A stretch of DNA of 36,232 nucleotides, taken from NCBI GenBank assembly GCA_947259795.1, contig CAMYNJ010000162.1:1-36232 (forward strand). The letters run 5' to 3'. The notes under the pieces are model-generated. The model was not told the origin of the DNA. It saw nothing but the letters and a program-made list of their open reading frames with translations, and did not search any database. Source of the stretch: an uncultured Alphaproteobacteria bacterium (GTDB lineage Bacteria; Pseudomonadota; Alphaproteobacteria; UBA8366; JADFVY01). Position 1 is the stretch's first letter. Every line of letters starts with the position of its first letter. The position numbers and the translations under genes are program-made. Below are positions 2,769-25,122 of the stretch, one piece after another.

Positions 2769-3176
2769 ATGAACGATACAGCCAACATCCTCATAGTAGA
2801 TGACGAAGAAGTGGTGCGCCTTAGCCAACTTAGAATCCTGGCGGACGCTCATTGCAACGCGGCGGTGGCCTGGAACGGTACCGAAGCGCTGCAGGTGATG
2901 GAGCAGCACCCATTCGACGTCGTGCTGCTCGATCTTCGCATGCCAGGTCTCGACGGCATGTCGGTTCTCAAGACGATCAAGGAGAGATGGCCCGAGAGCG
3001 AGGTGGTCATCATTACCGGTTACCCGTCAATCGAGACCGCCAAGGAAGCGGTCAGGCTCGGCGCCTACAACTATCTGGCCAAGCCTGTCAGCCCGGATGA
3101 CGTTGTCAAAGTCGCCAACGATGCAATGATGAAAAAAAAGTGGGGCCTGCAAAGGGAACGAACGAGCCCGAATTGA
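2769..3176 (+). CDS. Single-domain response regulator (receiver)
   Basis: 135 aa; ILIVDDEEVV, DVVLLDLRMPGLDGM phosphoacceptor region, ITGYPS, LAKPVSPDD; no output domain. Confidence 0.93.
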   Translation: MNDTANILIVDDEEVVRLSQLRILADAHCNAAVAWNGTEALQVMEQHPFDVVLLDLRMPGLDGMSVLKTIKERWPESEVVIITGYPSIETAKEAVRLGAYNYLAKPVSPDDVVKVANDAMMKKKWGLQRERTSPN

Positions 3177-3246: not shown

Positions 3247-3999
3247 ATGAAAACCTTACACAAAGTTCTGGTGGTTGACGACGATGCGATCGTCGGTCGG
3301 AGTTTCGATAGGGTCCTCGCGGACAAGGGCTATGACGTAAGCACCGCCCTCGATGGCGAGGAGGCCCTGAACAAGTTCAGCGGAGAGGCGTATGACGTCG
3401 TCTTCACCGACATCAAGATGCCGGGCATGGACGGTCTCGAGGTTGCCAGACGGATCAAGGCGAAGTGCCCCTGGACTCCGGTGGTCATCATCACCGGCTA
3501 TGGCACCGAAGAGAACGAGGCCGAGGCCAAGGTACTGGGGGTCAACGGCTTTGTCCGCAAGCCCCTGACGCCGGCGATGATCGAAGGCGTCACGCTGAAG
3601 GCCCTCAAGGAAAATGAGGCTGCCCCCGTTGCCCAGCCGGAAGCGGCGGTGATCGCCGCGCCACAGACCGAAACGGTCATCATGGAGACCGCGGACGTCG
3701 CGGCGGAGCCGGGGGCGCTGAGGAACATCCTGACCTTCGCAGGAAAGGTCAGTCTGTTCGTAGCGGCACCCGTCATCGGGCTGGCCTATGCCCTTCTCCT
3801 GCCCTTCTTCGGGCTCGGCGTGCTGGCTTGGATGGGCGTCCGTGCATTAGCCCGTCACACCATGCTGAAGAACATCGCCCTCTTCGCCGCGGCGCCCTTC
3901 ATCGGGCTGGCCTACGCCCTTCTCCTGCCCTTCGTCGGGCTCGGCCTGCTGGCCTGGATGGGCACCCGGATGCTGATCAAGCAACCCGAGCCGAAGTAG
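3247..3999 (+). CDS. Response regulator with C-terminal duplicated transmembrane hairpin
   Basis: 250 aa; receiver (VLVVDDDAIVG, DVVFTDIKMPGMDGL, VRKPLTP) then a linker and two copies, 42 aa apart, of LFxAAPxIGLAYALLLPFxGLGxLAWMGxRxL; AAGGAG Shine-Dalgarno. Confidence 0.88.
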   Translation: MKTLHKVLVVDDDAIVGRSFDRVLADKGYDVSTALDGEEALNKFSGEAYDVVFTDIKMPGMDGLEVARRIKAKCPWTPVVIITGYGTEENEAEAKVLGVNGFVRKPLTPAMIEGVTLKALKENEAAPVAQPEAAVIAAPQTETVIMETADVAAEPGALRNILTFAGKVSLFVAAPVIGLAYALLLPFFGLGVLAWMGVRALARHTMLKNIALFAAAPFIGLAYALLLPFVGLGLLAWMGTRMLIKQPEPK

Positions 4000-4110: not shown

Positions 4111-5826
4111 ATGGCACGCTCCAGGATCGAAGGCCAAGCCGCAAGCGGCCCATCACACGCAAGCCTTGTCACGGCCGCCGTTGCGGTATTTCTGACACTA
4201 CTCGTCGCGGCATTTCTAACGGCCTCTAGCGCTGTCGGCGCTGATTCCGTAGACGACGAGACATGTCTCGCATGCCACGATTCAGAGGGAATGGAAAAAG
4301 ATCTCGCGAACGGGGAAACCCTCTCGCTGCATATTCGCGGCGACGCCTTCGCAGACTCGTTGCACGGCTGGGTCGGGTGCGCGGGATGCCACGCAAGTGT
4401 CGACCTCGAGACCCATCCCGAAGACAAGACCATAGAGACCCGGCACGCCTATTCCGCTGAATTGTCGCAAGTCTGCTCGGAATGCCATTCGGGCGAAAGC
4501 CTGAAGGACGGCCCGGCACACCACGCGCGTGTGTCGACGGCCGCCGGTGGCCCGGCATGCGCCGAATGTCATGACGTGCATGCCATCACGCCGATGTCGG
4601 AATGGCGGGCGGGTATCGGGGAAACGGCCTACTGCCTTACTTGCCACGGACAGGCCCTCGATATCCGGTTCGAGAGCGGCGAATCCTTCGAGCTGTCCGT
4701 CGATGAGGCGGTGCTCCGCAACTCGGTGCATCTCGACCATGAATGCGCGGACTGCCATAGCGGTTTCTCGAAGGAAGCCCACGAGACGGGGGCCTTTGCG
4801 AGCACGCGTGAACATGTCATTGCGCGGGCCGAGGTCTGCCGCGAATGCCACGAGGAGAAATTCGAGCAGTACGAGGGAAGCATCCATGCCGCTCTGCTTG
4901 ACGGCGGCAACCTTGCGGCCCCGGTCTGCTCGGACTGCCACGGTTCTCATTCGGTCAGCCCCAAGGCCGTTTACGAGACGGTAACCGGCGTGCCCTGCAA
5001 GAAATGCCATGTCAACATCTTCGACGCCTATCTGGGCAGCATGCACGGCCAGGCCCGGAGCGTAGTGGGCCACTTCGAAGCGCCGATCTGCGCGGACTGC
5101 CACCGCGCCCACGAAGTCGGCGCGGCCGCGGCGGGCAACCAGCTGCGGGATGCATGTCTCGGATGCCATGCCGGTGCCATGGATGCCCACCAGGAATGGC
5201 TCCCGAACGCGGCCCTGCATCTCGAGGCAGTTTCGTGCCCGTCCTGCCATGCGCCGCTGGCGCAGCGGCGGGTCGAGCTCAGGCTTTTCGACACCAAGGC
5301 ACAGATGCCGTTTTCGGAGCCGGGCGACGCGCGGCAGTTCGAAAACCAGATCCGTTCCGCCGACGCGGAAGGCGACGGTCTGGATGCGTTCGAGTTGTGG
5401 ACCCTGGTCAGGGATATCAACCGCGAAGGAAAGACGCCCGAAATGACGTTACAGGGGCGTATGGGGGTTCGCACCGGTGCAGATGCCCACCGACTGTCCG
5501 ACAAGGCCGGCGCGGTCAGGGACTGCAGCAGTTGCCATCAGCAGGGCGCCGACCCATTCCAGAGCGTCACGGTGTCCATCGTCGGCCGCGACGGCAGGCC
5601 GGTGCGCTACGACGCCGACAAGGAGGTGCTGAGTTCCCTGATGTCCGTGAATTCGGTGAGCGGGTTCTACGCCATCGGCGGAACGCGCATCAAGCTGCTG
5701 GACGTGTTGCTCGTCTTCGCGTTCCTCGGCGGGATATCCGTGCCGATCGGGCATCTGACATTGAAATGGCTGTTCGGGAAATATCGGAAGAGAGCGCAGG
5801 GGGACGGCGCGTCCCCGGAATCATGA
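4111..5826 (+). CDS. Multiheme cytochrome c (13 CXXCH motifs) with N-terminal signal/anchor and C-terminal TM helix
   Basis: 571 aa from ATG 4111 (MARSRIEG...); CXXCH counted directly: CLACH, CAGCH, CSECH, CAECH, CLTCH, CADCH, CRECH, CSDCH, CKKCH, CADCH, CLGCH, CPSCH, CSSCH; C-terminal LLDVLLVFAFLGGISVPIGHLTL. Confidence 0.95.
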   Translation: MARSRIEGQAASGPSHASLVTAAVAVFLTLLVAAFLTASSAVGADSVDDETCLACHDSEGMEKDLANGETLSLHIRGDAFADSLHGWVGCAGCHASVDLETHPEDKTIETRHAYSAELSQVCSECHSGESLKDGPAHHARVSTAAGGPACAECHDVHAITPMSEWRAGIGETAYCLTCHGQALDIRFESGESFELSVDEAVLRNSVHLDHECADCHSGFSKEAHETGAFASTREHVIARAEVCRECHEEKFEQYEGSIHAALLDGGNLAAPVCSDCHGSHSVSPKAVYETVTGVPCKKCHVNIFDAYLGSMHGQARSVVGHFEAPICADCHRAHEVGAAAAGNQLRDACLGCHAGAMDAHQEWLPNAALHLEAVSCPSCHAPLAQRRVELRLFDTKAQMPFSEPGDARQFENQIRSADAEGDGLDAFELWTLVRDINREGKTPEMTLQGRMGVRTGADAHRLSDKAGAVRDCSSCHQQGADPFQSVTVSIVGRDGRPVRYDADKEVLSSLMSVNSVSGFYAIGGTRIKLLDVLLVFAFLGGISVPIGHLTLKWLFGKYRKRAQGDGASPES

Positions 5827-5874: not shown

Positions 5875-6424
5875 ATGCAGAAGCTCTATATCCACCCGCT
5901 GCCGGTCAGAATCTGGCATTGGACCAATGCTTCCGGATTCGTTGCGCTGATCCTGACCGGGCTGCAGATCAGGTATATCGGGATGGTCGACCTGATTTCC
6001 TTCGAAGTCGCCGTCAACCTGCACAACTGGATCGGCTTCGTCCTTATCGGAAACTTCTTCGTCTGGCTTCTGTTCTATCTGTTTTCGGACAAGATCAGGG
6101 TCTATCACCCGGAACTCAGCCCGGCGAATCAATGCGCTGCAGAGCATGTCGTACCAGATCATCATGATGCTCATCGTTCCGGTTCAGTTCTACACCGGGC
6201 TGCTGCTGTGGGACGTGACTCGCTTCGCCGGGTCGGTCGCGTTCTTCGGCGGGGTGCGGGTGGTGGACACGGTGCATGTGGTGATCTTCACCTTCTTCGT
6301 GTCGTTCATCATCATCCATGTCTATCTGGCAACGCTAGGCCACACCCGCACGGCGCATATCAAGGCGATGTTCACCGGATATGAGGAAGTCGAGGACGAA
6401 GCGGCGCACCGTCCGCAGTCTTAA
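5875..6424 (+). pseudogene. Cytochrome b (b561/thiosulfate-reductase-type membrane subunit), apparently disrupted by a frameshift or small deletion near 6115-6145
   Basis: N-terminal half MQKLYIHPLPVRIWHWTNASGFVALILTG...NLHNWIGF...KIRVYHPELSPA in one frame; C-terminal half INALQSMSYQIIMMLIVPVQFYTGLLLWDVTRF...VDTVHVVIFTFFVSFIIIHVYLATLGHTRTAHIKAMFTGYEEVEDEAA in the +1 frame. Confidence 0.75.
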
Positions 6425-6442: not shown

Positions 6443-6477
6443 TCGCCGGGCCACGCCATGCTGGCTCGGCGATTTTT
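6443..6477 (+). terminator. Rho-independent terminator after the cytochrome operon
   Basis: TCGCCGGGCC-acgccatgct-GGCTCGGCGA stem (one G.U) followed by TTTTT, in the convergent intergenic gap. Confidence 0.82.
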
Positions 6478-6487
6478 CTGCCCCGCA

Positions 6488-7912
6488 TCAAGAGGCTTCG
6501 GATACGTCGTGGCCCGCTTCGTTGCCGCGGATACGGATGTTGTATTTCTTCATGAGCGCCTGGAAATTGGCGCGCTGCATGCCGGTTTCCTCGGCGCTCT
6601 TGGTGACGTTCCAGGCGTTCCTCTTGAGCGCCTCGATGACGAACAGCTTTTCGATATTCTCCACCGATTTCTCGCGGGCGACTTTCTTTATGCGCTTGAG
6701 TTCGTCCCCGGTTCGCGGCACCTCGATATCGAGCCGCGGCATCATATCGATGATGCTTACCAGATGCGCCTGCCGGATGGTCTTGTCGGTGGCCAGGATC
6801 ACCGCGCGTTGAATGGTATTTTCAAGCTCCCGCACATTCCCGGGCCAGTCGTAATTCGTCAGCAGGTTCATGGCGTCCGCAGAAATATCGGTCATTTTCT
6901 TGTCCAGATCCGCGGCGAAAACGTTCAGGAAGTGGAAGGCGAGAGGCGGGATGTCGTCCCTGCGTTCCCGCAGCGGCGGTATCTGGATCGGGAAGATATT
7001 GATGCGGTAAAACAGATCTTCACGGAATGATCCGTCGGCCACCATTGCCTTGAGATCCTTGTTGGTGGCTGTTATCAGCCGGAAATTGGCGCCCTGGGTC
7101 CGGGTATCGCCCACCGCCTTGAATTCCCGTTCCTGGATCACCCGCAGGAGCTTGGCCTGGATCGACAGCGAGATGTTGCCGATCTCGTCCAGGAACAGCG
7201 TCCCGTTGTTCGCGACTTCGAACAGTCCCTTCTTGTTGGCCATCGCACCGGTGAACGCACCCTTGACGTGCCCGAACATCTCGCTCTCCAGCAGGCTCTC
7301 GTTCAGCGAGTTGCAGTCGACGGGGACAAAGGGATTGTCTTTCCGCAGGCTGTTGTAATGTATGGCGCGGGCGATCAATTCCTTGCCGGTTCCGCTTTCG
7401 CCCTGCAGCAGGACGGTGCTGTTGGTGGGCGCGCATTTCGCGATCAGGCGGAAGACGCTCTGCATCTGCGGGCTGGAGCCGATGATATTCTCGAAGCGGT
7501 ATTTGGAGCTGACCTCTGTCTTCAGGTTGAGGTTTTCCTGCAGCAATCGCCGTCGTTCCAGCGCCCGCTCCACGACCAACTCCAGTTCGTCGGGATCGAA
7601 GGGCTTCGGCAGGTAGTCGAAGGCGCCAAGCTTCATGGAGCGCACGGCGGTCTCGATCTGGGAATGCCCCGTCACCATGATGACGTCGACGTCCGGATGC
7701 GTCTCCTTCACCCTCTGAAGCACTTCCATGCCATCGATCTCCGGCATCATGATATCCAGGATCAGGACGTCGTAATCGTTCTCGTCGATCTTCCTGAGGG
7801 CCTCCCAGCCGTCCTGCACGGCCTCCACGTCGTAGTCCCCGCTGCCGAGGATGCGAAGGCAGCTCTGGACGACGATCTCCTCGTCGTCGACGACCAGTAT
7901 CCGGGCGCTCAT
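6488..7912 (-). CDS. Sigma-54-dependent response regulator (NtrC family)
   Basis: Receiver ILVVDDEEIVV/DVLILDIMMPEIDGM; AAA+ GESGTGKE, GAFTGA, GTLFLDEIGN, DWPGNVRELEN; C-terminal Fis-type HTH. ATG at 7912 overlaps the kinase stop (ATGA). Confidence 0.96.
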   Translation of the reverse strand: MSARILVVDDEEIVVQSCLRILGSGDYDVEAVQDGWEALRKIDENDYDVLILDIMMPEIDGMEVLQRVKETHPDVDVIMVTGHSQIETAVRSMKLGAFDYLPKPFDPDELELVVERALERRRLLQENLNLKTEVSSKYRFENIIGSSPQMQSVFRLIAKCAPTNSTVLLQGESGTGKELIARAIHYNSLRKDNPFVPVDCNSLNESLLESEMFGHVKGAFTGAMANKKGLFEVANNGTLFLDEIGNISLSIQAKLLRVIQEREFKAVGDTRTQGANFRLITATNKDLKAMVADGSFREDLFYRINIFPIQIPPLRERRDDIPPLAFHFLNVFAADLDKKMTDISADAMNLLTNYDWPGNVRELENTIQRAVILATDKTIRQAHLVSIIDMMPRLDIEVPRTGDELKRIKKVAREKSVENIEKLFVIEALKRNAWNVTKSAEETGMQRANFQALMKKYNIRIRGNEAGHDVSEAS

Positions 7913-9555
7913 GGGCCGTCTCCGCTGCCATCGCTTTCGGGTTCGCCGGTGGGCAATAGCAGTGGAAGGCAGATGCGGAACGTGGTGCCCTGTCCAACCG
8001 TGCTGTCCACCTCGATACACCCGCCGTGAGCCCTGACGATGCCGTGGCTGACGGACAGGCCCAGCCCGGTTCCCTTGCCCACCTCCTTGGACGAGAAGAA
8101 CGGGTCGAAGATTCGCTGAAGGTCTTCTTCCGGGATTCCGCAGCCGGTATCGATGATCGAGATTTCGACCATGGGCACGGGCTCCATACCGAGATCGCAA
8201 ATCCGGGGCTCCGCCGACTGACGGCACCGGATGGTGATGCTGCCGTCATCCTCGATGGCATGCTGGGCATTGACGACCATGTTCATGATGACCTGTTCGA
8301 TCAGGTCGGGCTCGACCCAGACCAGCGGCAGATTACGGTCGACATCCAGTGTGATTTCTATGTTGTGAAGGTGCGCCGGCCGTTCGACGATGCGCACCGT
8401 GTTCTCGATGATCTGATTGAGGTCGGCGAATTTCTTCTCCGGCGCCTTTTCGCGAGAAAAATCAAGAAGCCGCCGGATGATCGCGGCACAGCGTTTGGTT
8501 TCGCGAATCACCAGATCCAGGTCTTCCGCCTCCGGGCTGCCGTCCGGCACCTTTTTGCGCATCAGATGCGAGAAGGTCAGGATCCCGGTCAACGGATTGT
8601 TGAGTTCATGCGCGATGCCGGCCGCGAGCAGGCCGATTGAGGCAAGTTTTTCGCCGCGGGCGGCCTCGGCCTCGGCAATGCGGAGTTCCCGAGTTCGCTT
8701 TTCCACCTTCTGCTCGAGCGTGTGGCCCCACTCGCGCAACTTGGACTCGGACGTCCTGAGCGCCGATGTCATGGTATTGAACGAGGTCGCCAGTTGCCCG
8801 AACTCGTCCCCGCTGCGGACCGGAATCAACTGTTCCAGGTCTCCCGACGAGAGCCGCTTGGCGCCGCTTTCCAGGTCGCGCAGGGGCACGTACACCATGC
8901 GGTGCACGAGGAAGCTCAAGAACAGAGAGGCGACCACGATGAAGCCCAGCGAGATGCCTGCGACTGTAACCGTGTTGGACTGAATTGTCTGGTCGATTTC
9001 ATCGAGGGAATAGACAATATCCAAGACGCCGAGGATCGACTGGGACTCGTCGTGCTGGTGGCAGGCCGCCGTGTAGCATGACGGCTCGTTGCGGATCACC
9101 TCCATGCTGCCGAGCAGCCGTCGCCCATCCGACGTCGGAAAGATCCGCGGCCTCTTGCATGCGGGAATCTGTTCCAGGGGCTGGCGCGTCCGGTGACACT
9201 GGCCACACTCTTCAGCCTTTTCAAGGATCGCAGAGCCGATTTCGGGCCGGTAGGTCGAGTGGATGATCGTCCCGTCCTTGCTCAGTATCCGGACCTTTTC
9301 GATGTTCTCCTGGTTCCCGACATCCTGGATTATCTGGCCTACGTAAGCGGGCTGATTCTGCAGCATGGCAAACCGCGTGCTTCGCACGATCACCTCGGAG
9401 AGCTGATTGACGTGGCCCGTCGCCTCCTGGAGGAGTTCCTGCCGGCTATGCCGCACCACAAGCACGGTGAACAGGAGCATCGCCACCGTCAGGGCGATCG
9501 CCAGGAACAAACCGATCTTGAGCTTGAGGGATACCGGGCGCATTCGCTCCTGCAC
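7909..9555 (-). CDS. Sensor histidine kinase with predicted periplasmic c-heme-type motifs, HAMP, HisKA and HATPase
   Basis: 548 aa; N-terminal TM, periplasmic segment with CGQCH and CYTAACH, second TM, HAMP, H-box AAGIAHELNNPLTGI, N/G boxes NMVVNAQHAIEDD, DTGCGIPEE, GTGLGLSVSHGI. Confidence 0.94.
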   Translation of the reverse strand: MQERMRPVSLKLKIGLFLAIALTVAMLLFTVLVVRHSRQELLQEATGHVNQLSEVIVRSTRFAMLQNQPAYVGQIIQDVGNQENIEKVRILSKDGTIIHSTYRPEIGSAILEKAEECGQCHRTRQPLEQIPACKRPRIFPTSDGRRLLGSMEVIRNEPSCYTAACHQHDESQSILGVLDIVYSLDEIDQTIQSNTVTVAGISLGFIVVASLFLSFLVHRMVYVPLRDLESGAKRLSSGDLEQLIPVRSGDEFGQLATSFNTMTSALRTSESKLREWGHTLEQKVEKRTRELRIAEAEAARGEKLASIGLLAAGIAHELNNPLTGILTFSHLMRKKVPDGSPEAEDLDLVIRETKRCAAIIRRLLDFSREKAPEKKFADLNQIIENTVRIVERPAHLHNIEITLDVDRNLPLVWVEPDLIEQVIMNMVVNAQHAIEDDGSITIRCRQSAEPRICDLGMEPVPMVEISIIDTGCGIPEEDLQRIFDPFFSSKEVGKGTGLGLSVSHGIVRAHGGCIEVDSTVGQGTTFRICLPLLLPTGEPESDGSGDGP

Positions 9556-9888: not shown

Positions 9889-10425
9889 CTAATCGCAGCA
9901 GTGCTTCTGCAGTTTGTCCCCGATGCTCAACAGGAACATCAGGCTTTTCTGCGATTCCGGTTTCGTCAGCAGCGAGAGGGTCGACAGCAGGCCGCCGGGT
10001 GGCTTGGCGTCGGCGGTTTCCCTGACCGCCTCCTCCATGGCGCCGGTGGCGCCCGCCGCGAGTCGCGCGAGGTTATCGCTGCCCAGCGTATTGACCATCT
10101 GCTCCCCGAACGAGAACAGCCGCTCGACCATGGGATCGGTCAGGGACGATCTCGTGGCGTGGATGATCGCCACCAGATCGAACAGCGTGTCCAGCGCGCC
10201 GATCCGGTGCAGTTCGGTCAGCCGGTCCAGCGCGGTCTGGATCGCGTCGCGCGTGGTCTCGTCGTTCAGCCGGTCCACCACTTCCAGCGCGTTGCAGGCG
10301 GTCACCGACAGGCGCTCAACCATCGAATCGGTCAGCGCATCGCGGGCCGCCAGGATAAGCCTTGCGGTCTCATCCTCGGGCATGTTTGCCAGAACCGTTG
10401 GTTTGGCCTTTGCTTGTTCTGCCAT
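9889..10425 (-). CDS. DUF1641 domain-containing protein
   Basis: 178 aa from ATG 10425; repeated helical segments (LTDSMVERLS, RLTELHRIGALDTLFDLVAIIHA...) typical of DUF1641 proteins next to SQR-like oxidoreductases. Confidence 0.75.
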   Translation of the reverse strand: MAEQAKAKPTVLANMPEDETARLILAARDALTDSMVERLSVTACNALEVVDRLNDETTRDAIQTALDRLTELHRIGALDTLFDLVAIIHATRSSLTDPMVERLFSFGEQMVNTLGSDNLARLAAGATGAMEEAVRETADAKPPGGLLSTLSLLTKPESQKSLMFLLSIGDKLQKHCCD

Positions 10426-10438
10426 GATTCCGGCCCCC

Positions 10439-11578
10439 TTACAGAAGGCCGCGGGCTGACAGCCAGTACAGCCGGTTATAGGCCAGCTTGAACCAGTGCA
10501 GCATCTGCGACGGCGGCCCCGGATTCGGCGGGGTCGTGTAATTGAACCAGACATAGGTACCGGTGCTGAGCCCCGTCTCGACGAAGCAGAACACCTTGCC
10601 GTCGTAATGGCGGGCCCATTGCCCTTCCGATATCAGCGAGGCCAGGTTGTCGATGATGGTGTCGGCCTCGAAATGGGCGGTGGAGCCGGCCTTCGAGATC
10701 GGGATGTTGGTGGTGTCGCCGACCACGAAGACGTTGGTCGAGCCCTCGCGCAGCAGCTTTTCCCTGTCGGTCGGCACCCAGCCGCCGGCGCCGAGATCGG
10801 AATCCAGGATCACCTGTGAGCCGGTATGGGGCGGGATGGTGATCAGCAGGTCGTAGGGCAGGGTTGAGCCTTCCTCCGACGTGATGGTCTTGGCCGCCGG
10901 GTCGATTTCCTTGGTGTTGAAGAAAGTTTCCGACTTGATGCCGTATTTGTCGAATTCCGGCACCGCCCAATGGGCCACCGGCTCCAGCGAATGCAGCCGG
11001 CCGATCGGGTAGGTGTAGGTGATCTCGCTCTTGTCCATGACGCCCTTTTCCTTCAGGTAATCATAGAGCATGAAGGTGATTTCCAGAGGCGCCACCGGAC
11101 ATTTGTGCGGCACGTTGACGTTGACGACGATCTTGCCGCCTTCGAAATTGCGCAGGCTCTCGCGCATCTTGCGGGCGCCGTCCAGGTCATAGAACCAGTG
11201 CGCGCCTTCCTCCATGCCCGGAACGGTGTCGGGGCGGATGCGCGAGCCGGTGGCGATCACGACATAGTCATAGTCGTAGCTCTTGCCGGATTCGCATGTC
11301 ACGCGGTTGTTTTCGACGTCTATGTTCGTCGCCGCGTCGATATTGAAGGTCACTCGATTGTCCAGCACCTTGCGCTGGTTGCGGAACAGTTCAGCCTCGC
11401 GGATCTTGCCGAAGGGCACGTAGAGCAGGCCCGGCTGATACAAATGCGTGTCGGTATTGCCGATCATTGTGATGCGGGCCTCGCCCGAGCGAAGCTGCTC
11501 GCCAAGCTGCCGGCACAGACCGTTCGCTACGATGGTGCCGGCGAGTCCCCCGCCGACGATTACGATGTGCGTTGCCAT
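10439..11578 (-). CDS. FAD/NAD-dependent oxidoreductase, sulfide:quinone oxidoreductase-like
   Basis: 379 aa; GGGLAGTIVANGL dinucleotide motif, YVVIATGSRIRPD, HKCPVAPLEITFMLYDYL (conserved Cys region), FVVGDTTNIPISKAGSTAHFEAD, VFCFVETG. Confidence 0.85.
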   Translation of the reverse strand: MATHIVIVGGGLAGTIVANGLCRQLGEQLRSGEARITMIGNTDTHLYQPGLLYVPFGKIREAELFRNQRKVLDNRVTFNIDAATNIDVENNRVTCESGKSYDYDYVVIATGSRIRPDTVPGMEEGAHWFYDLDGARKMRESLRNFEGGKIVVNVNVPHKCPVAPLEITFMLYDYLKEKGVMDKSEITYTYPIGRLHSLEPVAHWAVPEFDKYGIKSETFFNTKEIDPAAKTITSEEGSTLPYDLLITIPPHTGSQVILDSDLGAGGWVPTDREKLLREGSTNVFVVGDTTNIPISKAGSTAHFEADTIIDNLASLISEGQWARHYDGKVFCFVETGLSTGTYVWFNYTTPPNPGPPSQMLHWFKLAYNRLYWLSARGLL

Positions 11579-11648
11579 TCCTATTTCCTCCCTGGCATTG
11601 CGGGCGTTTCAAAACTGCGCCCTCTCGGCCTCACCTTATTGTCTTTTT

Positions 11649-11879
11649 TTATTTGGCCTTGCGCACGACGATGCTGTCATAGCCCTCCATGTTCTCGACG
11701 CCGACCATTTCGTGCCCGACCTTGGCCACCCATTCCGGGATGTCCTTGGCCGAACCCTTGTCCGACGACCAGATTTCGACCTCGTCGCCAACCTCGATCA
11801 GCTTCAGGGCGGCGATCAGTTCCATCAGCGGTCCCGGGCAGAAGGCCCCGCGGGCATCGATTTTCGTGCGTTCGGCCAT
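11649..11879 (-). CDS. TusA-family sulfurtransferase/sulfur carrier
   Basis: 76 aa; IDARGAFCPGPLMELIAALKLIEVGDEVEIWSSDKGSAKDIPEW, CPxP motif. Confidence 0.93.
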   Translation of the reverse strand: MAERTKIDARGAFCPGPLMELIAALKLIEVGDEVEIWSSDKGSAKDIPEWVAKVGHEMVGVENMEGYDSIVVRKAK

Positions 11880-11906
11880 AATCCGGTCTTCTCCCTTTGC
11901 TCCCGT

Positions 11907-12305
11907 TCAGAGCGTTACGAACTGCCCGCCCTCGGCGTCGGACAGGAATTTCGTCAGGCCCATCGCCTCATCGAACAGGCCGTCCACCAGCCGGTTCTCG
12001 TCCCAGCCGGAGACGTCGAGCGCCATCGAGCAGACATACATTTTCAGGTCGCCGAGCATCTTTCCCTGCTCGAACAGATTGATCGCATCCGGCACGCCCT
12101 TTTCCTTCAAGAGGCCGGAAAAGGTGCCGCCCCTGTATCGCTCGGCAGGCGGCGCATCCTTGTCGAAGGCAAACATGGCATTCATGCTGACGAAAACATG
12201 CACCGCCCGGTCCGACACGGCGCCGACCGAGGCCATCATGGCCGCCATCTGGATCTTTTCATGCTCTCCGGAACACAGGAGAATATACAAAGGTTGCGAG
12301 GTCAT
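11907..12305 (-). CDS. DsrE/DsrF-like family protein
   Basis: 132 aa from ATG 12305 (MTSQPLYILLCSGEHEKIQMAAMMASVGAVSDRAVHVFVSMNAMFAF...MYVCSMALDV). Confidence 0.85.
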   Translation of the reverse strand: MTSQPLYILLCSGEHEKIQMAAMMASVGAVSDRAVHVFVSMNAMFAFDKDAPPAERYRGGTFSGLLKEKGVPDAINLFEQGKMLGDLKMYVCSMALDVSGWDENRLVDGLFDEAMGLTKFLSDAEGGQFVTL

Positions 12306-12402
12306 GGGCTTCCTGCGAGTTCGCAATCGCCCATTCTACGCAAAACATTGGGTGGAATAGAGCTACAAAATGTCGCAGCCCGTTCGGCAGTAACTGCCGT
12401 GG

Positions 12403-13293
12403 TTATTTCTTGTTTTTTTTGCCTTTGCCCGACGCCTTCCCGGTTGCCCTTGCGGCGATGTCGTTCATGCCGTCGATCAGCGTCGGGCGTTCCTCGCGGT
12501 AGAACAGGCCCAGTGCCGGGGCCTCCGCCCTTGTCGCCTGTTCCATCGCCACCAAGCGGTCGGACGGGTCATGGTCCGCCGGCAGGTCGCGCACCCGGAC
12601 ATCCAGGTTAGCGTAGGTCATCTCGGTCTTGTCGAAGGTGACGCAGGGCGACAGGATATGCAGATAGGAAAAGCCGCGATGGGCGACCGCCTCGGCGATC
12701 ATGTCGGTCAGATGGTGGGGCCGGCCGGCATAGGCCTGGCCGACCCAGCTTGCCCCATACGACAACAGCATCATCAGCGGATTGAGCGGCCGGTCATGGC
12801 TTTCGTACGGCGTCGAGGGCGTGACGAAGCCTTCGACCGAGGTCGGCGAGGTCTGCCCCTTGGTCAGCCCGTAGATGCCGTTGTCGAACACCATGTAGGT
12901 GATGTCGGCATTGCGCCGCGCCGCGTGCGGGATATGGCCGCCGCCGATCGCGAAGGCGTCGCCGTCGCCGCCCACCGCCAGCACGGTCAGCGCGTCGTTG
13001 GCCACCTTCACCCCCGTGGCCACGGGCAGCGTGCGGCCATGCAGGGTATGGAAGCCGTATGTCTCCATGAAGAAGGGGAAGCGCGAGGCGCAGCCGATGC
13101 CGGAGACGATCACTGCATCCTTGAGCGGCACCTTCAGCCGGTTGAGCGCGGTGGCGACGCCTTCGGCCACGCTGAAATAGCCGCAGCCCGGGCACCATGT
13201 GGGCAGCGACGAGGAGCGGTAGCGCAGATGCCCGTCGCCACGGACCTCGTTCAGCTTGTCTTCCAGATAGACGGGTTTCAGCGGTTCGGTCAT
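12403..13293 (-). CDS. 2-oxoacid:ferredoxin oxidoreductase, beta subunit
   Basis: 296 aa from ATG 13293; TPP-binding features WCPGCGYFSV, SGIGCASRFPFFMETYGFHTLHGRTLPVATGVKVAN, VGGDGDAFAIGGGH, DNGIYGLTKGQTSPTS. Confidence 0.94.
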   Translation of the reverse strand: MTEPLKPVYLEDKLNEVRGDGHLRYRSSSLPTWCPGCGYFSVAEGVATALNRLKVPLKDAVIVSGIGCASRFPFFMETYGFHTLHGRTLPVATGVKVANDALTVLAVGGDGDAFAIGGGHIPHAARRNADITYMVFDNGIYGLTKGQTSPTSVEGFVTPSTPYESHDRPLNPLMMLLSYGASWVGQAYAGRPHHLTDMIAEAVAHRGFSYLHILSPCVTFDKTEMTYANLDVRVRDLPADHDPSDRLVAMEQATRAEAPALGLFYREERPTLIDGMNDIAARATGKASGKGKKNKK

Positions 13294-13306
13294 TGCTCTC
13301 CTCCCG

Positions 13307-15094
13307 TCAGGCCGCTTTCGCCTGTGCCAGCCGGCGGATTTCGGCGAGAATCTCCTCCACCTGCATCGGCGCACCGGTCGAGCGGGTCAGTTTCGTCACC
13401 GGCCGGCCCAGCGCGCCGGAGATCAGGTTCGCGAACTGCCCCTCGTAATTCAATTCGGGAACCAGCACCGTGCCGCAATCGTCCATGAAGGCCACAATCC
13501 GCTCCTTCGGCAGCGGTGACAGCATCACCACCTTCATCGCCGAGCAGCGGATGCCTTCGTCCTGCGCAGCGAACATGGCTTCCAGGATTTCGCCGAAGGT
13601 CGAGCCCCAGCCCAGAATGCCGACATCCACCGGCCCCTCGTCGCCGAAGCGCTTGCAGATGGTAAAGTCGGGATGGCTCAGCGCACCGTCCAGCTTCCGG
13701 TGACGTTTGGCGTTCATCGCCAGGTGGTTCTCGGGCGCATCGCTGGGTTTGCCGAGCTGGTTGTGCTCCAGGCCGGTCACGGTATGCATGCCGCCTTCCT
13801 CGCCCGGAAGGGCGCGCGGACTGATATGATCGTCCGTATCGGCGAAGCGCGGATACTCGCCGTCGCCGCGCCAGGCATCCAGCCCCTTGTTCAGGTTCGG
13901 CGCGAAGGGATTGGCGTCCGGCGGGATCACGGTCTCGTAGCGGTTCGACAGATAGAGGTCGAGCAGCACGACCACCGGCGTCTGATATTTCTCGGCCATC
14001 TCGAAGGCCTTGCCGGCGGTGCGGTAGCAGCCTTCGACATTGGTCGGCGCCAGCACGATTCGCTGGGCGTCGCCGGCACCGCCGAATACCGCGAGGTTGA
14101 GATCCGATTGTTCCGTCTTGGTCGGCATACCGGTTGACGGCCCGCCGCGCTGGCTGACGAAAACCACCGACGGCACCTCGCCCATCACGCCCAGCCCCAG
14201 CATCTCGGTCATCAGCGCGAGGCCCGGGCCGGAAGTTGCGGTCGCCGCGCGGGCTCCGGTATAGCCCGCACCAATGGTGGCCGCGATGGCGGAAATCTCG
14301 TCCTCGGTCTGCAGCACCCTGCCGCCATGCTTCGGCAGCTCCGCCGCCAGCCGCTCCAGGATCGTGGTCGCCGGCGTAATCGGATAGCCGAAAAAGGTAT
14401 CCAGCCCCGCGTCGATGCAGCCGCGCACCACGGCCCCGTTGCCGGTCATCATGGTCACTTTGCCGCTATCGCCTTTGCGGACCGGCGGGCCAAGCTGGAC
14501 GTCGTCCAGCTTGAAGACGCTTTGGCCGACCTCGTAGCCAGCATCGAAGGCGGCCGTATTCTGCACGGTAACGGCCTGGGCCTTGGTGCGGAACTTGTCG
14601 GCGATAATCTCGCGAAAGGCCTGGGGATCGATACCGTAGAGACCGGCCAGGTAACCCAGCACCACGATATTTCGCGACCGGGCCGAGGCCGTAACACGCT
14701 CGGAGATGCTGCGCACCTGCATCCCGTAGGGCAGCTGGCTGGGTTTGACATGGGCGGTCATGTGACCGCCCTCCGGCAGCCTCGCGATCGGCGAGGACTC
14801 ATAGATGACGGCGCCGTAATCGCGGACCTCGCCGACATGGGGAATGGCGTAGCTGTCGTCCAGCGAGATCAGCACGTCGGAATGGCGCTTCAGGGAATAG
14901 GCCTGTTCCGTGGTGATGCGCACCCGCGAAATGCATTTGCCGAAACCGCGGATTTCCGCCGGGTAGATGTCGAAGGCGATGACCTTGTAGCCCAGCCCCG
15001 CCATGGCGCGCTTCAGGATATCGCCGGCGGCGATCGTCCCGTCGCCGGCCGAGCCGATGACCGCAAACTGAATATCCGTGCCGTTCTTGTTCAT
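13307..15094 (-). CDS. 2-oxoacid:acceptor oxidoreductase, fused gamma-alpha subunit
   Basis: 595 aa; N-terminal gamma domain (GSAGDGTIAAGDILKRAMAGLGYKVIAFDIYPAEIRG) and alpha domain (GYPITPATTILERLA, TEDEISAIAATIGAGYTGARAATATSGPGLALMTEMLGLGVMGEVPSVVF). Confidence 0.94.
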   Translation of the reverse strand: MNKNGTDIQFAVIGSAGDGTIAAGDILKRAMAGLGYKVIAFDIYPAEIRGFGKCISRVRITTEQAYSLKRHSDVLISLDDSYAIPHVGEVRDYGAVIYESSPIARLPEGGHMTAHVKPSQLPYGMQVRSISERVTASARSRNIVVLGYLAGLYGIDPQAFREIIADKFRTKAQAVTVQNTAAFDAGYEVGQSVFKLDDVQLGPPVRKGDSGKVTMMTGNGAVVRGCIDAGLDTFFGYPITPATTILERLAAELPKHGGRVLQTEDEISAIAATIGAGYTGARAATATSGPGLALMTEMLGLGVMGEVPSVVFVSQRGGPSTGMPTKTEQSDLNLAVFGGAGDAQRIVLAPTNVEGCYRTAGKAFEMAEKYQTPVVVLLDLYLSNRYETVIPPDANPFAPNLNKGLDAWRGDGEYPRFADTDDHISPRALPGEEGGMHTVTGLEHNQLGKPSDAPENHLAMNAKRHRKLDGALSHPDFTICKRFGDEGPVDVGILGWGSTFGEILEAMFAAQDEGIRCSAMKVVMLSPLPKERIVAFMDDCGTVLVPELNYEGQFANLISGALGRPVTKLTRSTGAPMQVEEILAEIRRLAQAKAA

Positions 15095-15098
15095 GGGC

Positions 15099-16127
15099 CT
15101 AATGCTCCCAGAAGGGCGAGGCGATATGCCCTTTCTTGTCGATGCGCAGGCGCTCGTCCTCCAGCCCCTCGAAGGCCTCGTTGGCGCCGGTAACGTTTCG
15201 CGCCGCCATCTCGCCCATCAGCCGGACATTGTTCCAGCCGTAATAGAACCTGTAGGCGTTGTCCTCCGCAGACCAGATCTGACAGACGTCGCCGGCGGCC
15301 CAGATATTCTTGTCGGTGGTGTGCAGCATGGGATCGACCAGCAGGCCGCGTTCGATATCGACGCCGGAACCCAGCATGAATTCGGCGGTCGGCACCAGGC
15401 CGTAGGACGGCATCACGACGTCGCCTTGGACGTCGCCGCCATCGTCGAAGATCACGCGGCGGGCGGGTTTGCCCGCTTCGCCTTCCTCCACCGCGACAGG
15501 GTGTACGCCATCCACGACCTCAATGCCCATATGCCCCAGCGCCTGGATGAATCCGTCGCGCTCGTCCTCCGCGATCCTGTGGGGCCAGAAGGTATATTCG
15601 TTGGTCAGCAGGACGACCCGGTATCCGGTATCGATCAGGGTGCGGGCAAGGTCCAGCCCGATCATGTCGCCGCCCAGCATGACCAGCGTGCCGCCGGCGG
15701 GTAACGCCTTATAGGTGGTCATGGCGGCCTCGAACGAACCGAAGCCGCTCATCAGGCCGCGATAGTCGCTGAGTTCCTCCGGCAGATATCCCTGCCCGCC
15801 GGCGCAGACCAGCAGGCGATCGTAATGCATGACCTCGTTATGGGCGAAGGTGATGGTGCGACTGCGGGCGTCGACGTCGGTCACCCGGCTATTGCGGCGA
15901 AGCGTGATGCTGTGATCGTCGTAATAGGACAGGGGATGTACCAGGATCTCCCGCCAGTCGTAACAGCCGCGGAACACGCGGGGCAGGTCGTAGCGGTTAT
16001 AGAAGGGCAGGCTGCCCATGGTGATGATGGTGATGCGGCAGTCCGGGTCGCGCTCGCGCAGCGTTATCGCGGCGCCGTTGCCCGCGCTGCCGTTGCCGAT
16101 GATGACGTTGTGGATTGCCTCGCCCAT
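15099..16127 (-). CDS. NAD(P)/FAD-dependent oxidoreductase (nitrite/rubredoxin-reductase-like fold)
   Basis: 342 aa; VIIGNGSAGNGAAITLRERDPDCRITIITMGSLPFYNR, LLVCAGGQGYLP, LVMLGGDMIGLDLARTLIDTGYRVVLL, IWAAGDVCQIW. Confidence 0.88.
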   Translation of the reverse strand: MGEAIHNVIIGNGSAGNGAAITLRERDPDCRITIITMGSLPFYNRYDLPRVFRGCYDWREILVHPLSYYDDHSITLRRNSRVTDVDARSRTITFAHNEVMHYDRLLVCAGGQGYLPEELSDYRGLMSGFGSFEAAMTTYKALPAGGTLVMLGGDMIGLDLARTLIDTGYRVVLLTNEYTFWPHRIAEDERDGFIQALGHMGIEVVDGVHPVAVEEGEAGKPARRVIFDDGGDVQGDVVMPSYGLVPTAEFMLGSGVDIERGLLVDPMLHTTDKNIWAAGDVCQIWSAEDNAYRFYYGWNNVRLMGEMAARNVTGANEAFEGLEDERLRIDKKGHIASPFWEH

Positions 16128-16130
16128 GGC

Positions 16131-17948
16131 TCATATGTCCTGCGTGACGAACTCGTTGCGGGTAATCGTGATGCATTTGGTCGGACAGACCATGAAGCAG
16201 GCGCCGCAGCGGATGCATTCGTTATTGTCGATCCAGATCGCGCCGACCTCGTCCCACTGCCGCGTTTCCTTCAACTCGCCATAGGTGCCGTCCTTGCGGA
16301 TTTCCACACCTTCCACCAGCTTGATGCAATTCTTCGGCGCGACCTCGATGCAGGCGCGGCAATAGATGCAGTTGTCGATGTCGATCTGGTATTTCAGATT
16401 GCACAGATAGCAGCGTTTCGACTCGGTCCCGGCCACCTCTTCGCCGTAACCGGTTTCCACTTCGCAGGTCAGCGCTCCGGCCCGCTTGGTCAGGGTGGCC
16501 GTCGGCATGTGCTGGCTTTCGATAAAATCGAAGGACCGTTCGCGTAGCGGCCCTGCCACCGGCTCGATACGAACCACCTGGCGACGGCGCTGATGGCCCA
16601 TCAGCCACTGGTCAATGCCGTTGGCAATACGGCGGCCGTTGCCGATAGCCTCGATGATGGTGGTGGGGCCGGAGACGAAATCGCCGGCGGCGAATATGCC
16701 CTTGACCGATGTCTTGCCGCCTTCGCCGGCCTTGACGCTGCCCCAGCGGTCCAGCGCCAGCTTCACATCCAGATAATCATTGACCGTGCGCTGGCCGATG
16801 GCGATCAGCAGCGTGTCGCAGGGTTCGGTGAATTCGGAACCCTCTATCGCAATGGCCTGGCGGCGGCCGTTATCGCGCCAGCCGCCCAGCCGGTTCTGCG
16901 CGAACTCGACGCCATGCAACGCGCCGTTTTCGTCGACCAGCAGTTCCACCGGCGTGCGCAGGCCCTTGAGGCGGACACCCTCGCGCTTGGTCTCGAATAT
17001 CTCATCCTTGGTGACCGGGATATATTCTTCGGCCGTGCGGATATGGATGGTAACCTCTTCCGCGCCCAGCCGTTTCGCAACACGCGCGCAATCCAGCGCG
17101 GTGAAACCGGCGCCGACCACGGCAACGCGCTTGCCGACCTTCTTCTTCTCGCCCCGATGCATCTCCATCAGGAAATCGAGGCCGTATTCGACGCCTTCGA
17201 TCGAGGTCGGGTCGTCCCTGCCCACGCCTCCCTTCAGGGGCAGTTTCACCGCCGCCATGCTGCCGGTAGTCAGCAAGACAGCATCGTAATCCTTGCGCAG
17301 CCGCGCCAGGGGCGTCTGGCCGGTCCCCTTCCCGATCTCCGCGCCGGTGCGCAGTTCCACGCCCAGCCGCAGCGCGTTGTGCAGCTCTACATGCAGGATG
17401 TCGCGCGGCAGGCGGAAGGCGGGTATGCCGTAACGCAGCATGCCGCCGGGGTCGCGCTCGCGCTCGAAGATGGTGACGTCGTGGCCCAGCAGCGACAAAT
17501 CGTGCGCCGCGGCCACGCCCGCCGGCCCGGCGCCGACGATGGCGACGCGCTTGCCCGACGGTGTGTAGAGGCTTTCGGTAATGCGGTGGCCGACATGCTT
17601 CAGGTCGCTGGCCGATCGCTTCAGATGGCAGATATTCACCGGGTCGCCATTGCCCGGTTGGCCATGCCGGCAGACATCCTCGCAGGGGCGCGAGCAGATG
17701 CGCCCCAGCACGCCGGGCAGCACATTGGCCTCGCGGTTGATCTCGTAAGCCCGGCCGTAATCCTTTTCCATGATCGCCTGGATATAGGCGGGGATGTTGG
17801 TCAAGGCGGGGCAGGCGGTCTGACAGGGGATATTCTCGCGTACCCAGCCGATATCGCGGGGATCGTCGGAATACCAGACCTGGTCTTCACCGGGCGCCGG
17901 CCCGGGGCGCACCGCGCGGCTATTCTTGGCCTTGCGCGGCTCAGACAT
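16131..17948 (-). CDS. GltD-like FAD/NAD(P) oxidoreductase with N-terminal Fe-S region and C-terminal 2x[4Fe-4S] ferredoxin domain
   Basis: 605 aa from ATG 17948; CQTACPALTNIPAYIQ...CSRPCEDVC, VAIVGAGPAGVAAAHDL, GFTALDCARVAKRLGAEEVTI, FAAGDFVSGPTTIIEAIGNGRRIANGID, NCIYCRACIEVAPKNC and ECIRCGACFMVCPTKC. Confidence 0.94.
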   Translation of the reverse strand: MSEPRKAKNSRAVRPGPAPGEDQVWYSDDPRDIGWVRENIPCQTACPALTNIPAYIQAIMEKDYGRAYEINREANVLPGVLGRICSRPCEDVCRHGQPGNGDPVNICHLKRSASDLKHVGHRITESLYTPSGKRVAIVGAGPAGVAAAHDLSLLGHDVTIFERERDPGGMLRYGIPAFRLPRDILHVELHNALRLGVELRTGAEIGKGTGQTPLARLRKDYDAVLLTTGSMAAVKLPLKGGVGRDDPTSIEGVEYGLDFLMEMHRGEKKKVGKRVAVVGAGFTALDCARVAKRLGAEEVTIHIRTAEEYIPVTKDEIFETKREGVRLKGLRTPVELLVDENGALHGVEFAQNRLGGWRDNGRRQAIAIEGSEFTEPCDTLLIAIGQRTVNDYLDVKLALDRWGSVKAGEGGKTSVKGIFAAGDFVSGPTTIIEAIGNGRRIANGIDQWLMGHQRRRQVVRIEPVAGPLRERSFDFIESQHMPTATLTKRAGALTCEVETGYGEEVAGTESKRCYLCNLKYQIDIDNCIYCRACIEVAPKNCIKLVEGVEIRKDGTYGELKETRQWDEVGAIWIDNNECIRCGACFMVCPTKCITITRNEFVTQDI

Positions 17949-17983
17949 CGCCCCCTCCAATTTCCGGTCGCGCACCCGTCATG

Positions 17984-18547
17984 TCAGTCTCCCTGCGCCA
18001 GCGCGGCCAGATTGTCGATATCGTCACGCAGGGCACGAAAATAATCGGCGACGGCATCGCCGAACAGCGGATCGTCCTCGCCGTCCAGCTGGCCGTCGAT
18101 TTCGGCCCAGTCCCGATCGGAAAGCACCCGCCGGGCAGCCGGGAACATATGCGATTCCTCGCGCGCGATGTGGTGGCGGTAGCGGCGGATGAAATCGTGG
18201 GTCAGTTTCTGCACATGGTCGCGGTCGACCGGTTCTTCCGCCAGGGCGCGTTCGATCAGCTCGGCCAGTTCGCGGGTCGCCTCGGCCAGGCTGCGATGTT
18301 CCTCCTCGAGGTCGCCGACCTCGGCTGCAAGGACAGGGTCCCGGCTTCGCAGGATGTCATAAATCAGGTCTTCCTTGGGATGATGAACCGCATCGGGATA
18401 TTCCAGGCAATATCGCAGGATGGCGCCGATCGTGTCATAATCAGCCGCTCCACCGGCCGTGAACAGAGCAAGTTGCCGGTCGAGAAGATCCAGCAGCCGC
18501 GAGAGATCGGCATGCTCCTTATGAAGTCTATTCAGCACTTCCGGCAT
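17984..18547 (-). CDS. Hemerythrin HHE cation-binding domain protein
   Basis: 187 aa; LHKEHADLSRLLDLLDRQL, HHPKEDLIYDIL, LEEEHRSL, RYRHHIAREESHMFPAARRVL. Confidence 0.93.
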   Translation of the reverse strand: MPEVLNRLHKEHADLSRLLDLLDRQLALFTAGGAADYDTIGAILRYCLEYPDAVHHPKEDLIYDILRSRDPVLAAEVGDLEEEHRSLAEATRELAELIERALAEEPVDRDHVQKLTHDFIRRYRHHIAREESHMFPAARRVLSDRDWAEIDGQLDGEDDPLFGDAVADYFRALRDDIDNLAALAQGD

Positions 18548-19846: not shown

Positions 19847-20452
19847 CTACGCCCCCCAATATTCCGCCTCACCCACCTCACCGCCCCATTGGGCCGCGGT
19901 TTCGGTGAGGAAGTCCCAGATTGTCACGGCGAAGCCGCGGGGGACATAGAGGTCGTAGCCGCCGCCGCGGTGGTGCAGGTTTGCGCCGACCAGATGGATC
20001 GCGCCGCCGGCGAAGGCACCTTCGGGGAAGCTGTCGGGGCGCAGGTCGGTGGGCAGGCCGCGGTTTAACAGGTCACGCGCGCGGGGGCCCTCGATGCGAA
20101 TCACCGTGCGGCTGTGCGACAAGTCGAGTGAGGTTCCCTGTTCCGCGTCGATTCCCATCGCCTGTTGCGCGGTGGCCTCGCCGGCGCGGGTCAGCCACCA
20201 GACGAAGGGCTGGACACGCAGCAACGTGCCCTTCGGACCGGCCGCCGATTGCAGCGGGCCGGGCGCGGCGTCGACGCCGACGATGCCAGCCAGCGTCGCA
20301 CCGACCTCGTCCATCGTTCCCGGCCAGCCTGAGACCTGCCACAGGCCGGCATCGCGGATCTCGCGCAGGGTGACGCCGGGGCCGTCCGTGCCGATATCGC
20401 CAGCCGGGCCGGGCTGGTAGTGCGTTGCCAGGGCCGATGTTCGCTCAAGCAT
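19847..20452 (-). CDS. soxG: Sarcosine oxidase subunit gamma
   Basis: 201 aa from ATG 20452, overlaps soxA end; LSHSRTVIRIEGPRARDLLNRGLPTDLRPDSFPEGAFAGGAIHLVGANLHHRGGGYDLYVPRGFAVTIWDFL. Confidence 0.92.
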   Translation of the reverse strand: MLERTSALATHYQPGPAGDIGTDGPGVTLREIRDAGLWQVSGWPGTMDEVGATLAGIVGVDAAPGPLQSAAGPKGTLLRVQPFVWWLTRAGEATAQQAMGIDAEQGTSLDLSHSRTVIRIEGPRARDLLNRGLPTDLRPDSFPEGAFAGGAIHLVGANLHHRGGGYDLYVPRGFAVTIWDFLTETAAQWGGEVGEAEYWGA

Positions 20453-23438: not shown

Positions 23439-23728
23439 TTCGCGGCCTCCTTCTCCAACTGAGCCTTGACGCCCGGATGGGCGGGCTCGGCGGAGAAGAT
23501 TTCATGGGTCATGGTATCGCGCTCAACGACGATCCACATGCGGCAGCCGTAATTATGCTGCCAGAGTTCCTTGTGCGGCCCACGCGGGTTTTCGCGCAGG
23601 AAGACGGCCTCGTACCATGCTTTCTCGTCGGTCGAGTCGATCTGCGGATAGTCGACGCCGGCGTCGCCACCATAGGAAAATTCGGTATGGTCCCGCTCGC
23701 CGCAGAAGGGACAGGGTATGCGCAGCAT
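23435..23728 (-). CDS. soxD: Sarcosine oxidase subunit delta
   Basis: 97 aa; MLRIPCPFCGERDHTEFSYGGDA...HNYGCRMWIVVERDTMTHEI; overlaps soxA start. Confidence 0.96.
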   Translation of the reverse strand: MLRIPCPFCGERDHTEFSYGGDAGVDYPQIDSTDEKAWYEAVFLRENPRGPHKELWQHNYGCRMWIVVERDTMTHEIFSAEPAHPGVKAQLEKEAAK

Positions 23729-23742
23729 CTATCCGGCCCCTT

Positions 23743-25008: not shown

Positions 25009-25122
25009 GGGGGCACTCCCTGCTTCATCAACCGGCAAACCGAAGCCGGTAAACCCGACTAGGCGCGCATGCCGATTCCCATTTGTCCGCCAACGCCATA
25101 AATGCGCCGGATACCGCCAAGC

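Follow-up and report, generated by a model that had tools for sequence, protein, structure and literature searches.

A response regulator with a repeated hydrophobic unit in a predicted sigma-54 regulon of multihaem cytochrome genes

The operon and its receiver-hairpin protein

The window is the whole stretch of alphaproteobacterial DNA that was analysed, 36,232 nucleotides in length. On its forward strand lies an operon that begins with a stand-alone CheY-like receiver of 135 amino acids (2769–3176, +; PF00072, E 3e-29). The second gene (3247–3999, +) is the main finding reported here, it encodes a receiver, a linker and two membrane units in a single protein, which we call REC-hairpin. The next genes encode a multihaem cytochrome c with 13 CXXCH motifs and a C-terminal hydrophobic anchor (4111–5826, +; PF14522/PF14537) and a cytochrome b561-type membrane subunit (5875–6424, +) whose reading frame is broken, PF01292 being matched on both halves. 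A predicted intrinsic terminator consisting of an 11-bp stem and a T-run (6443–6472, +) closes the operon. The 13 CXXCH motifs of the cytochrome c are also found in the homologues at loci L012 and L013, most homologues have nine. DNA alignment of the cytochrome b gene with those of loci L013 and L014 reveals a 95-nt internal deletion, with the gap near position 6128 and the frame shifted; the deletion is either real or an assembly error. A membrane protein with a CPVCNK motif and no Pfam or NCBIfam match is encoded beside the operon (1822–2475, −), and adjoins it at loci L013 and L014 too.

The REC-hairpin reading frame encodes 250 amino acids from an ATG start with an RBS-like sequence, GGAAGGAGAA, 5' of it. 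The intact CheY-like receiver domain occupies residues 1–122 (3247–3612, +) and includes a PF00072 match at residues 7–111 (E 1e-27); its Foldseek matches are the receivers of CheY and NtrX. Residues D12/D13, D55, T83 and K105 are invariant in all 41 aligned REC-hairpin homologues. By the Pfam match and these conserved catalytic residues the protein is a response regulator, with a receiver that appears active and is predicted to be phosphorylated. The receiver is followed by a disordered linker rich in alanine, proline and glutamate at residues ~123–158 (3613–3720, +), for which the AlphaFold2 model gives pLDDT values below 50 at residues 132–135 and 137–156. Membrane unit 1 (residues 166–204; 3742–3858, +) and membrane unit 2 (residues 208–246; 3868–3984, +) match a profile of the unit with 71 and 78 bits. 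In the first-pass annotation this gene had been described as a receiver with a linker rich in Ala, Pro and Glu behind it, then two near-identical hydrophobic stretches 42 residues apart, a layout that the reading frame and the PF00072 match bear out. For the pair formed by the window and L012, dN/dS is 0.13 in the receiver, 0.81 in the linker and 0.34 in the hairpins, which argues that the tail is under purifying selection and that the linker is loose.

The operon is not confined to the window. In tblastn searches with the window genes the order receiver, REC-hairpin, multihaem cytochrome c and cytochrome b recurs among the loci, and in many Beta- and Alphaproteobacterial loci the operon faces genes for an NtrC-type activator and a histidine kinase. 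The stand-alone receiver directly 5' of REC-hairpin is conserved across homologous loci, and an ORF finder calls a multihaem gene directly 3' of REC-hairpin in 23 loci including the window. In Rhodoferax-like genomes many of the REC-hairpin genes sit apart from the cytochromes.

The repeated unit and its topology

The C-terminal region of REC-hairpin matches no Pfam model, and the NCBIfam matches of the protein are confined to the receiver with none for the tail. A PDB sequence search with the tail gave no match below E 0.08, and a plasmid collection held no match either. The region had been flagged as a possible uncharacterised output, and this description stands in so far as Pfam, NCBIfam and the PDB sequences hold no described output family that matches it. 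By sequence comparison, the unit forms a family that is missing from Pfam.

A search with the tail only, against one genome per species, identified 129 relatives, of which the best 80 were kept. The tail relatives are mostly from Betaproteobacterial MAGs (Rhodoferax, Polaromonas, Rhodocyclaceae and other Burkholderiales), with some from Alphaproteobacteria. A class-wide tail search in the window's own class returned only its own genome and two marginal matches, the family is therefore patchy in this class. Scanning with a profile of the unit yields 171 copies, spread over 83 proteins at one to four apiece. The units occur either as one to four copies behind a receiver or as two (rarely three) in small receiver-less proteins, a few of which are fragments at a contig edge. 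The consensus of the unit is [KR]N-x-A-L-F-x-A-A-P-F-I-G-L-A-[YF]-x4-P-[FL]-V-G-L-x-M-L-A-W-x-[GA]-x-[KR]-A-L, within which PF[IV]GL is repeated. P10 is conserved in 100% of the copies, P21 and L14 in 99% and G13 in 98%.

At five loci, mostly labelled Hyphomicrobiales (L063, L066, L070, L074 and L088), the cytochromes have beside them both a REC-hairpin and a stand-alone hairpin protein, each with two units. The hairpin genes at L025, L044 and L082 come from MAGs that bear the labels Patescibacteria and Chitinophaga pinensis; of these, L044 holds a whole module of betaproteobacterial type, so mis-binning is likely.

The cores of the units are nearly devoid of charge (29 charged among 5301 residues), and their end positions are lysine or arginine (or histidine) in 89% of cases for the first and 82% for the last. 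The loops between units have an average net charge of +3.3 to +3.7 and are positive with one, two or three units. The C-terminal tails average +1.6 to +2.8 in the well-populated classes, again whether there are one, two or three units. Under the positive-inside rule these loops and tails would be cytoplasmic, and each unit would enter and exit the membrane on the same side. In the AlphaFold2 model of REC-hairpin (41 sequences, mean pLDDT 83.6) each unit is one continuous helix without a turn (residues 158–203 and 208–244, block-mean pLDDT about 71–93). The earlier description of each unit as a transmembrane hairpin is supported by the charge pattern and not by the predicted structure.

The model would suit a different topology, that of an ordinary two-pass anchor: each unit would cross the membrane once as one long helix with a kink, and the duplicated hairpin would be a misreading. 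This reading concerns topology only and is compatible with the role that we favour below; we give it a real, though minority, chance. The loops average a net +3.6 and the C-tails are positive for one, two or three units, so that the positive-inside rule would be violated if the parity of crossings alternated with unit number. The stretch of ~32 uncharged residues is also long for a single pass. The hairpin topology that the charges suggest is more likely, although not proven. An amphipathic surface helix was considered as well and rejected, the hydrophobic moment is low along the core of the unit.

The haem kinase, the activator and the predicted regulon

Facing the operon, the reverse strand encodes a 474-residue protein (6488–7912, −) with a receiver, an AAA+ domain containing the GAFTGA motif and a Fis-type helix-turn-helix (PF00158, E 2e-69). 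On the strength of these domains, the GAFTGA motif and the sigma-54 promoter statistics given below, this protein is an NtrC-family sigma-54 activator as far as sequence can tell. Beside it is a membrane histidine kinase with a periplasmic Cache-like sensor (7909–9555, −), which contains a CXXCH motif at residue 117 and a CX4CH motif at residue 160. Among 26 kinase homologues in the cluster, CXXCH is present in 24 and CX4CH in all, and the cysteines of both motifs are invariant in 28 aligned kinase sensors; from these motifs haem attachment is predicted. The kinase model has a pLDDT of 79 and its best Foldseek matches are the sensor domains of WalK, CitA and DctB, the modelled sensor thus has a Cache fold. 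The kinase does not match the DUF3365/Tll0287 profile (PF11845) at E≤0.1.

A predicted sigma-54 (−24/−12) promoter, TGGCACGGAAGTTGCG (2712–2727, +), starts 57 nt 5' of the first gene of the operon. Further upstream is a predicted enhancer (upstream activator) site, the palindrome ATGTACATAATTTATGTACAT (2584–2604, +), which belongs to a motif found de novo, TGYAYR-N7-TGTACTT. With at least 9 of 11 consensus positions required for a call, 27 of 33 loci have a sigma-54 promoter at a near-fixed distance 5' of the first receiver gene, where 1.0 would be expected. Such promoters also precede 21 of 23 REC-hairpin genes at loci where no first receiver was mapped (0.4 expected), and 28 of the 29 hairpin genes that stand alone (1.2 expected). 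Of the six loci among the 33 that lack the promoter at the first receiver, five (L046, L047, L053, L058 and L064) have a stand-alone hairpin gene with such a promoter just 5'.

A blind search for gapped palindromes 5' of 70 promoters found GTACA-N7-TGTAC in 15 sequences, as against at most 2 in shuffles. The refined motif TGYAYR-N7-TGTACTT, at a threshold of at least 11 of 13 positions, is present at 62 of the 70 promoters (0.7 in shuffles) with clustered distances. Because the motif was refined and counted on the same 70 sequences, a genome-wide test is the stronger one. A search of 20 whole genomes for a palindrome half-site together with a sigma-54 promoter retrieved 30 readable loci; in 25 of these (26 with L136, a module contig) the gene that follows codes for a hairpin protein or for a receiver at the head of an operon. 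The window's genome contains exactly one palindrome with a sigma-54 site, that of the REC-hairpin operon, and it encodes rpoN. Helical phasing of the palindrome positions at the 70 promoters showed no clear-cut pattern. The predicted regulon is confined almost wholly to the module operons and the hairpin genes, with binding by the activator inferred from these sites. The lone REC-hairpin genes were also considered as unrelated orphans, a possibility that was rejected since they have the same promoter signature and their genomes usually encode the kinase.

The profile of the haem-kinase sensor is matched in 28 of 34 genomes picked for their hairpin genes, 32 of which were picked at loci without a kinase nearby, and in 2 of 299 genomes of the same order. 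This gives a Fisher p of about 1e-31 (26 of 32 versus 1 of 298). MtrB/PioB (PF11854), the porin of electron conduits in the outer membrane, is found in 24 of 27 genomes with the module and in 17 of 20, the window's genome included, as against 28 of the 299. Both comparisons are uncorrected for kinship and MAG incompleteness. The background of 299 genomes represents one order with no Alphaproteobacterial members and is unmatched by genus or completeness, the p-values therefore overstate independence. In L017 an MtrB gene and two decahaem MtrA-like genes lie just 5' of the module. MtrB/PioB serves both metal reduction and Fe(II) oxidation, so both processes fit the module-bearing genomes. The functional link between the REC-hairpin gene, the adjoining cytochromes and the kinase, which had been suggested from the window alone, is thus supported by a conserved module, a common predicted regulon and co-occurrence.

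Within the order sample, only genome G557 has a convincing hairpin while lacking the kinase. In its hairpin-bearing receiver (L099) VDGD replaces VDDD and a glutamate replaces the phospho-acceptor aspartate, an observation on a single genome.

A proposed role for REC-hairpin and its alternatives

On balance we favour the explanation that REC-hairpin acts as a receiver resident in the membrane, within a redox-sensing regulon that serves electron transfer from quinone to the periplasm, and probably to the outside of the cell, in organisms equipped to exchange electrons with their surroundings. The kinase would read a redox state or a haem ligand; its motifs and fold are seen, whereas haem binding and the ligand are presumed. 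It would phosphorylate the NtrC-type activator, which would bind the palindrome and drive the sigma-54 promoter, both of these sites being known from comparison. The promoter would transcribe the genes for the receiver, REC-hairpin, the multihaem cytochrome c and the cytochrome b. To judge by their architecture, the two cytochromes may act as a split quinol:periplasm bc module like CbcL and CbcBA of Geobacter. The steps from the kinase through the activator to the bc operon, taken as a regulon, we hold with good confidence.

The weakest step is the last, and we propose it tentatively. The repeated hydrophobic units would hold REC-hairpin in the inner membrane and leave its receiver in the cytoplasm, where the same kinase would phosphorylate it. 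It could then serve the bc module as an anchor or partner that phosphorylation switches, tuning electron flow faster than transcription can. The hairpins may touch the cytochromes; since many Rhodoferax-like REC-hairpin genes lie away from cytochromes, the target need not be the bc module. The broken cytochrome b of the window itself is evidence against the favoured explanation.

REC-hairpin might instead be a membrane-held phosphate sink or feedback buffer that drains the haem kinase and so limits activation of the NtrC-type protein, with the hairpins a mere anchor. Such a buffer would be made from a promoter predicted to be under the control of the kinase pathway, as REC-hairpin is, and two receivers without DNA-binding domains are co-transcribed in the operon. 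Some genomes also have extra REC-hairpin copies with the same promoter signature. However, receiver-less stand-alone hairpin proteins belong to the same regulon, and the conservation of the prolines, glycine and leucine in the unit is far above what a plain anchor needs. We consider a phosphate sink unlikely, though worth weighing.

The units may also be wedges that impose order or curvature on the inner membrane around respiratory complexes, with the receiver adding phospho-control in some members. The hydrophobic hairpins of caveolins and reticulons are about as long as the unit and are likely to have both their ends in the cytoplasm. We know of no sequence similarity between them and the units, which differ in being bacterial, repeated and fused to receivers. 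A wedge would be consistent with ~32 uncharged residues between positive ends, with one to four units per protein and with stand-alone members in the same regulon; however, AlphaFold2 draws no wedge. In Geobacter grown on low-potential anodes intracytoplasmic membranes form by a mechanism that is unknown (PMC10082016), a link that is one of analogy. This wedge function seems to us distinctly unlikely. It would be a long shot to go further and regard the units as a new bacterial membrane-shaping or scaffolding domain, present in one to four copies, that builds or marks respiratory domains of the inner membrane for extracellular electron transfer. The receiver versions would in that case place membrane architecture under phosphorylation by a haem redox kinase.

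The two units, ~33 residues each with starts 42 residues (126 nt) apart, are 88% identical in DNA over 89 nt, which the first-pass annotation had taken to suggest recent duplication or gene conversion. Both units are retained in each of three orthologues (87, 85 and 77% identical) that come from the same genome family. Unit 2 of the window has 88–91% nucleotide identity to unit 2 of the two closest orthologues and 79% to that of the most distant, against 80% to its own unit 1. Unit 2 is thus nearer to the orthologous unit 2 than to its own unit 1, and the duplication is old. The unit-wise orthology and the presence of both units in every orthologue led us to reject a recent duplication or gene conversion. 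A tail that is hydrophobic by chance, or a functionless recent tandem duplication, would fit the DNA identity of the two copies but is already refuted, as a matter of sequence, by the same orthologue comparisons, with the dN/dS of 0.34 and the spread of the unit across 83 proteobacterial proteins also against it, and we give it practically no chance.

Response regulators act in nearly all cases through outputs that bind DNA or are enzymes. A repeated membrane element as output, together with a c-haem kinase and quinol-to-periplasm cytochromes, points to phospho-dependent post-translational control, and suggests that the point of control is the inner-membrane gate of electron-exporting respiration. 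Searches of the open-access literature on membrane-bound response regulators and on this operon yielded no description of the system, nor of the repeated unit, the stand-alone paralogues or the regulon. Membrane-anchored response regulators are known as a kind, MetOD3 of methanogenic archaea having already been noted (PMC5847659). MetOD3, which is described as membrane-anchored, and REC-hairpin share a receiver and a non-DNA-binding output. REC-hairpin differs in being bacterial, in its repeated proline/glycine hydrophobic unit, in its ties to a haem kinase and a cytochrome operon, and in having stand-alone paralogues in the regulon.

CbcL of Geobacter sulfurreducens combines nine c haems and a di-haem b domain in the inner membrane (PMC9129911), and CbcBA is an inner-membrane quinone:cytochrome protein (PMC12307469). 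The module resembles both in pairing a multihaem periplasmic c-type part with a b-type membrane part, and by sequence it likely passes electrons from quinol to the periplasm. In the module c and b are separate genes, whereas CbcL has both in one protein; we therefore say that the module may work like CbcL, not that it is a CbcL. It also differs from CbcL and CbcBA in the 13 CXXCH motifs of the window's c-subunit and in the two receivers of the operon. Cache sensors with c-type haem are known as sCache_heme (DUF3365/Tll0287; PMC12889525). The sensor of the kinase is like these in its modelled periplasmic Cache-type fold and in signalling to a histidine kinase, and may be like them in its CXXCH, a motif for covalent haem attachment. 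It differs in its second conserved motif, CX4CH, and in lacking a DUF3365 Pfam match. The activator has the domain order, enhancer and −24/−12 promoter of other NtrC-family members, from which it is set apart by a distinct palindrome and by a regulon limited to module operons and hairpin genes. The palindrome with its sigma-54 promoter is a marker for redox-controlled electron-transfer modules in Proteobacteria outside Geobacter and Shewanella, and with the stand-alone paralogues it opens the question to direct test in a relative that can be cultured.

At L017 and L058 the module is a variant, in which genes for a membrane protein combining REC with a glycine-cleavage-H-like part, a cytochrome c7, a 4Fe-4S protein and NrfD lie between the hairpin genes and the kinase. 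Loci L032, L069 and L090 have similar genes. After the kinase, at positions 9889–18000, the window encodes a type III sulfide:quinone reductase-like protein (SQR), subunits of a 2-oxoacid:ferredoxin oxidoreductase and FAD/4Fe-4S oxidoreductases. A sarcosine-oxidase-type cluster with alpha, beta, gamma and delta-like subunits is present at 19850–25038.
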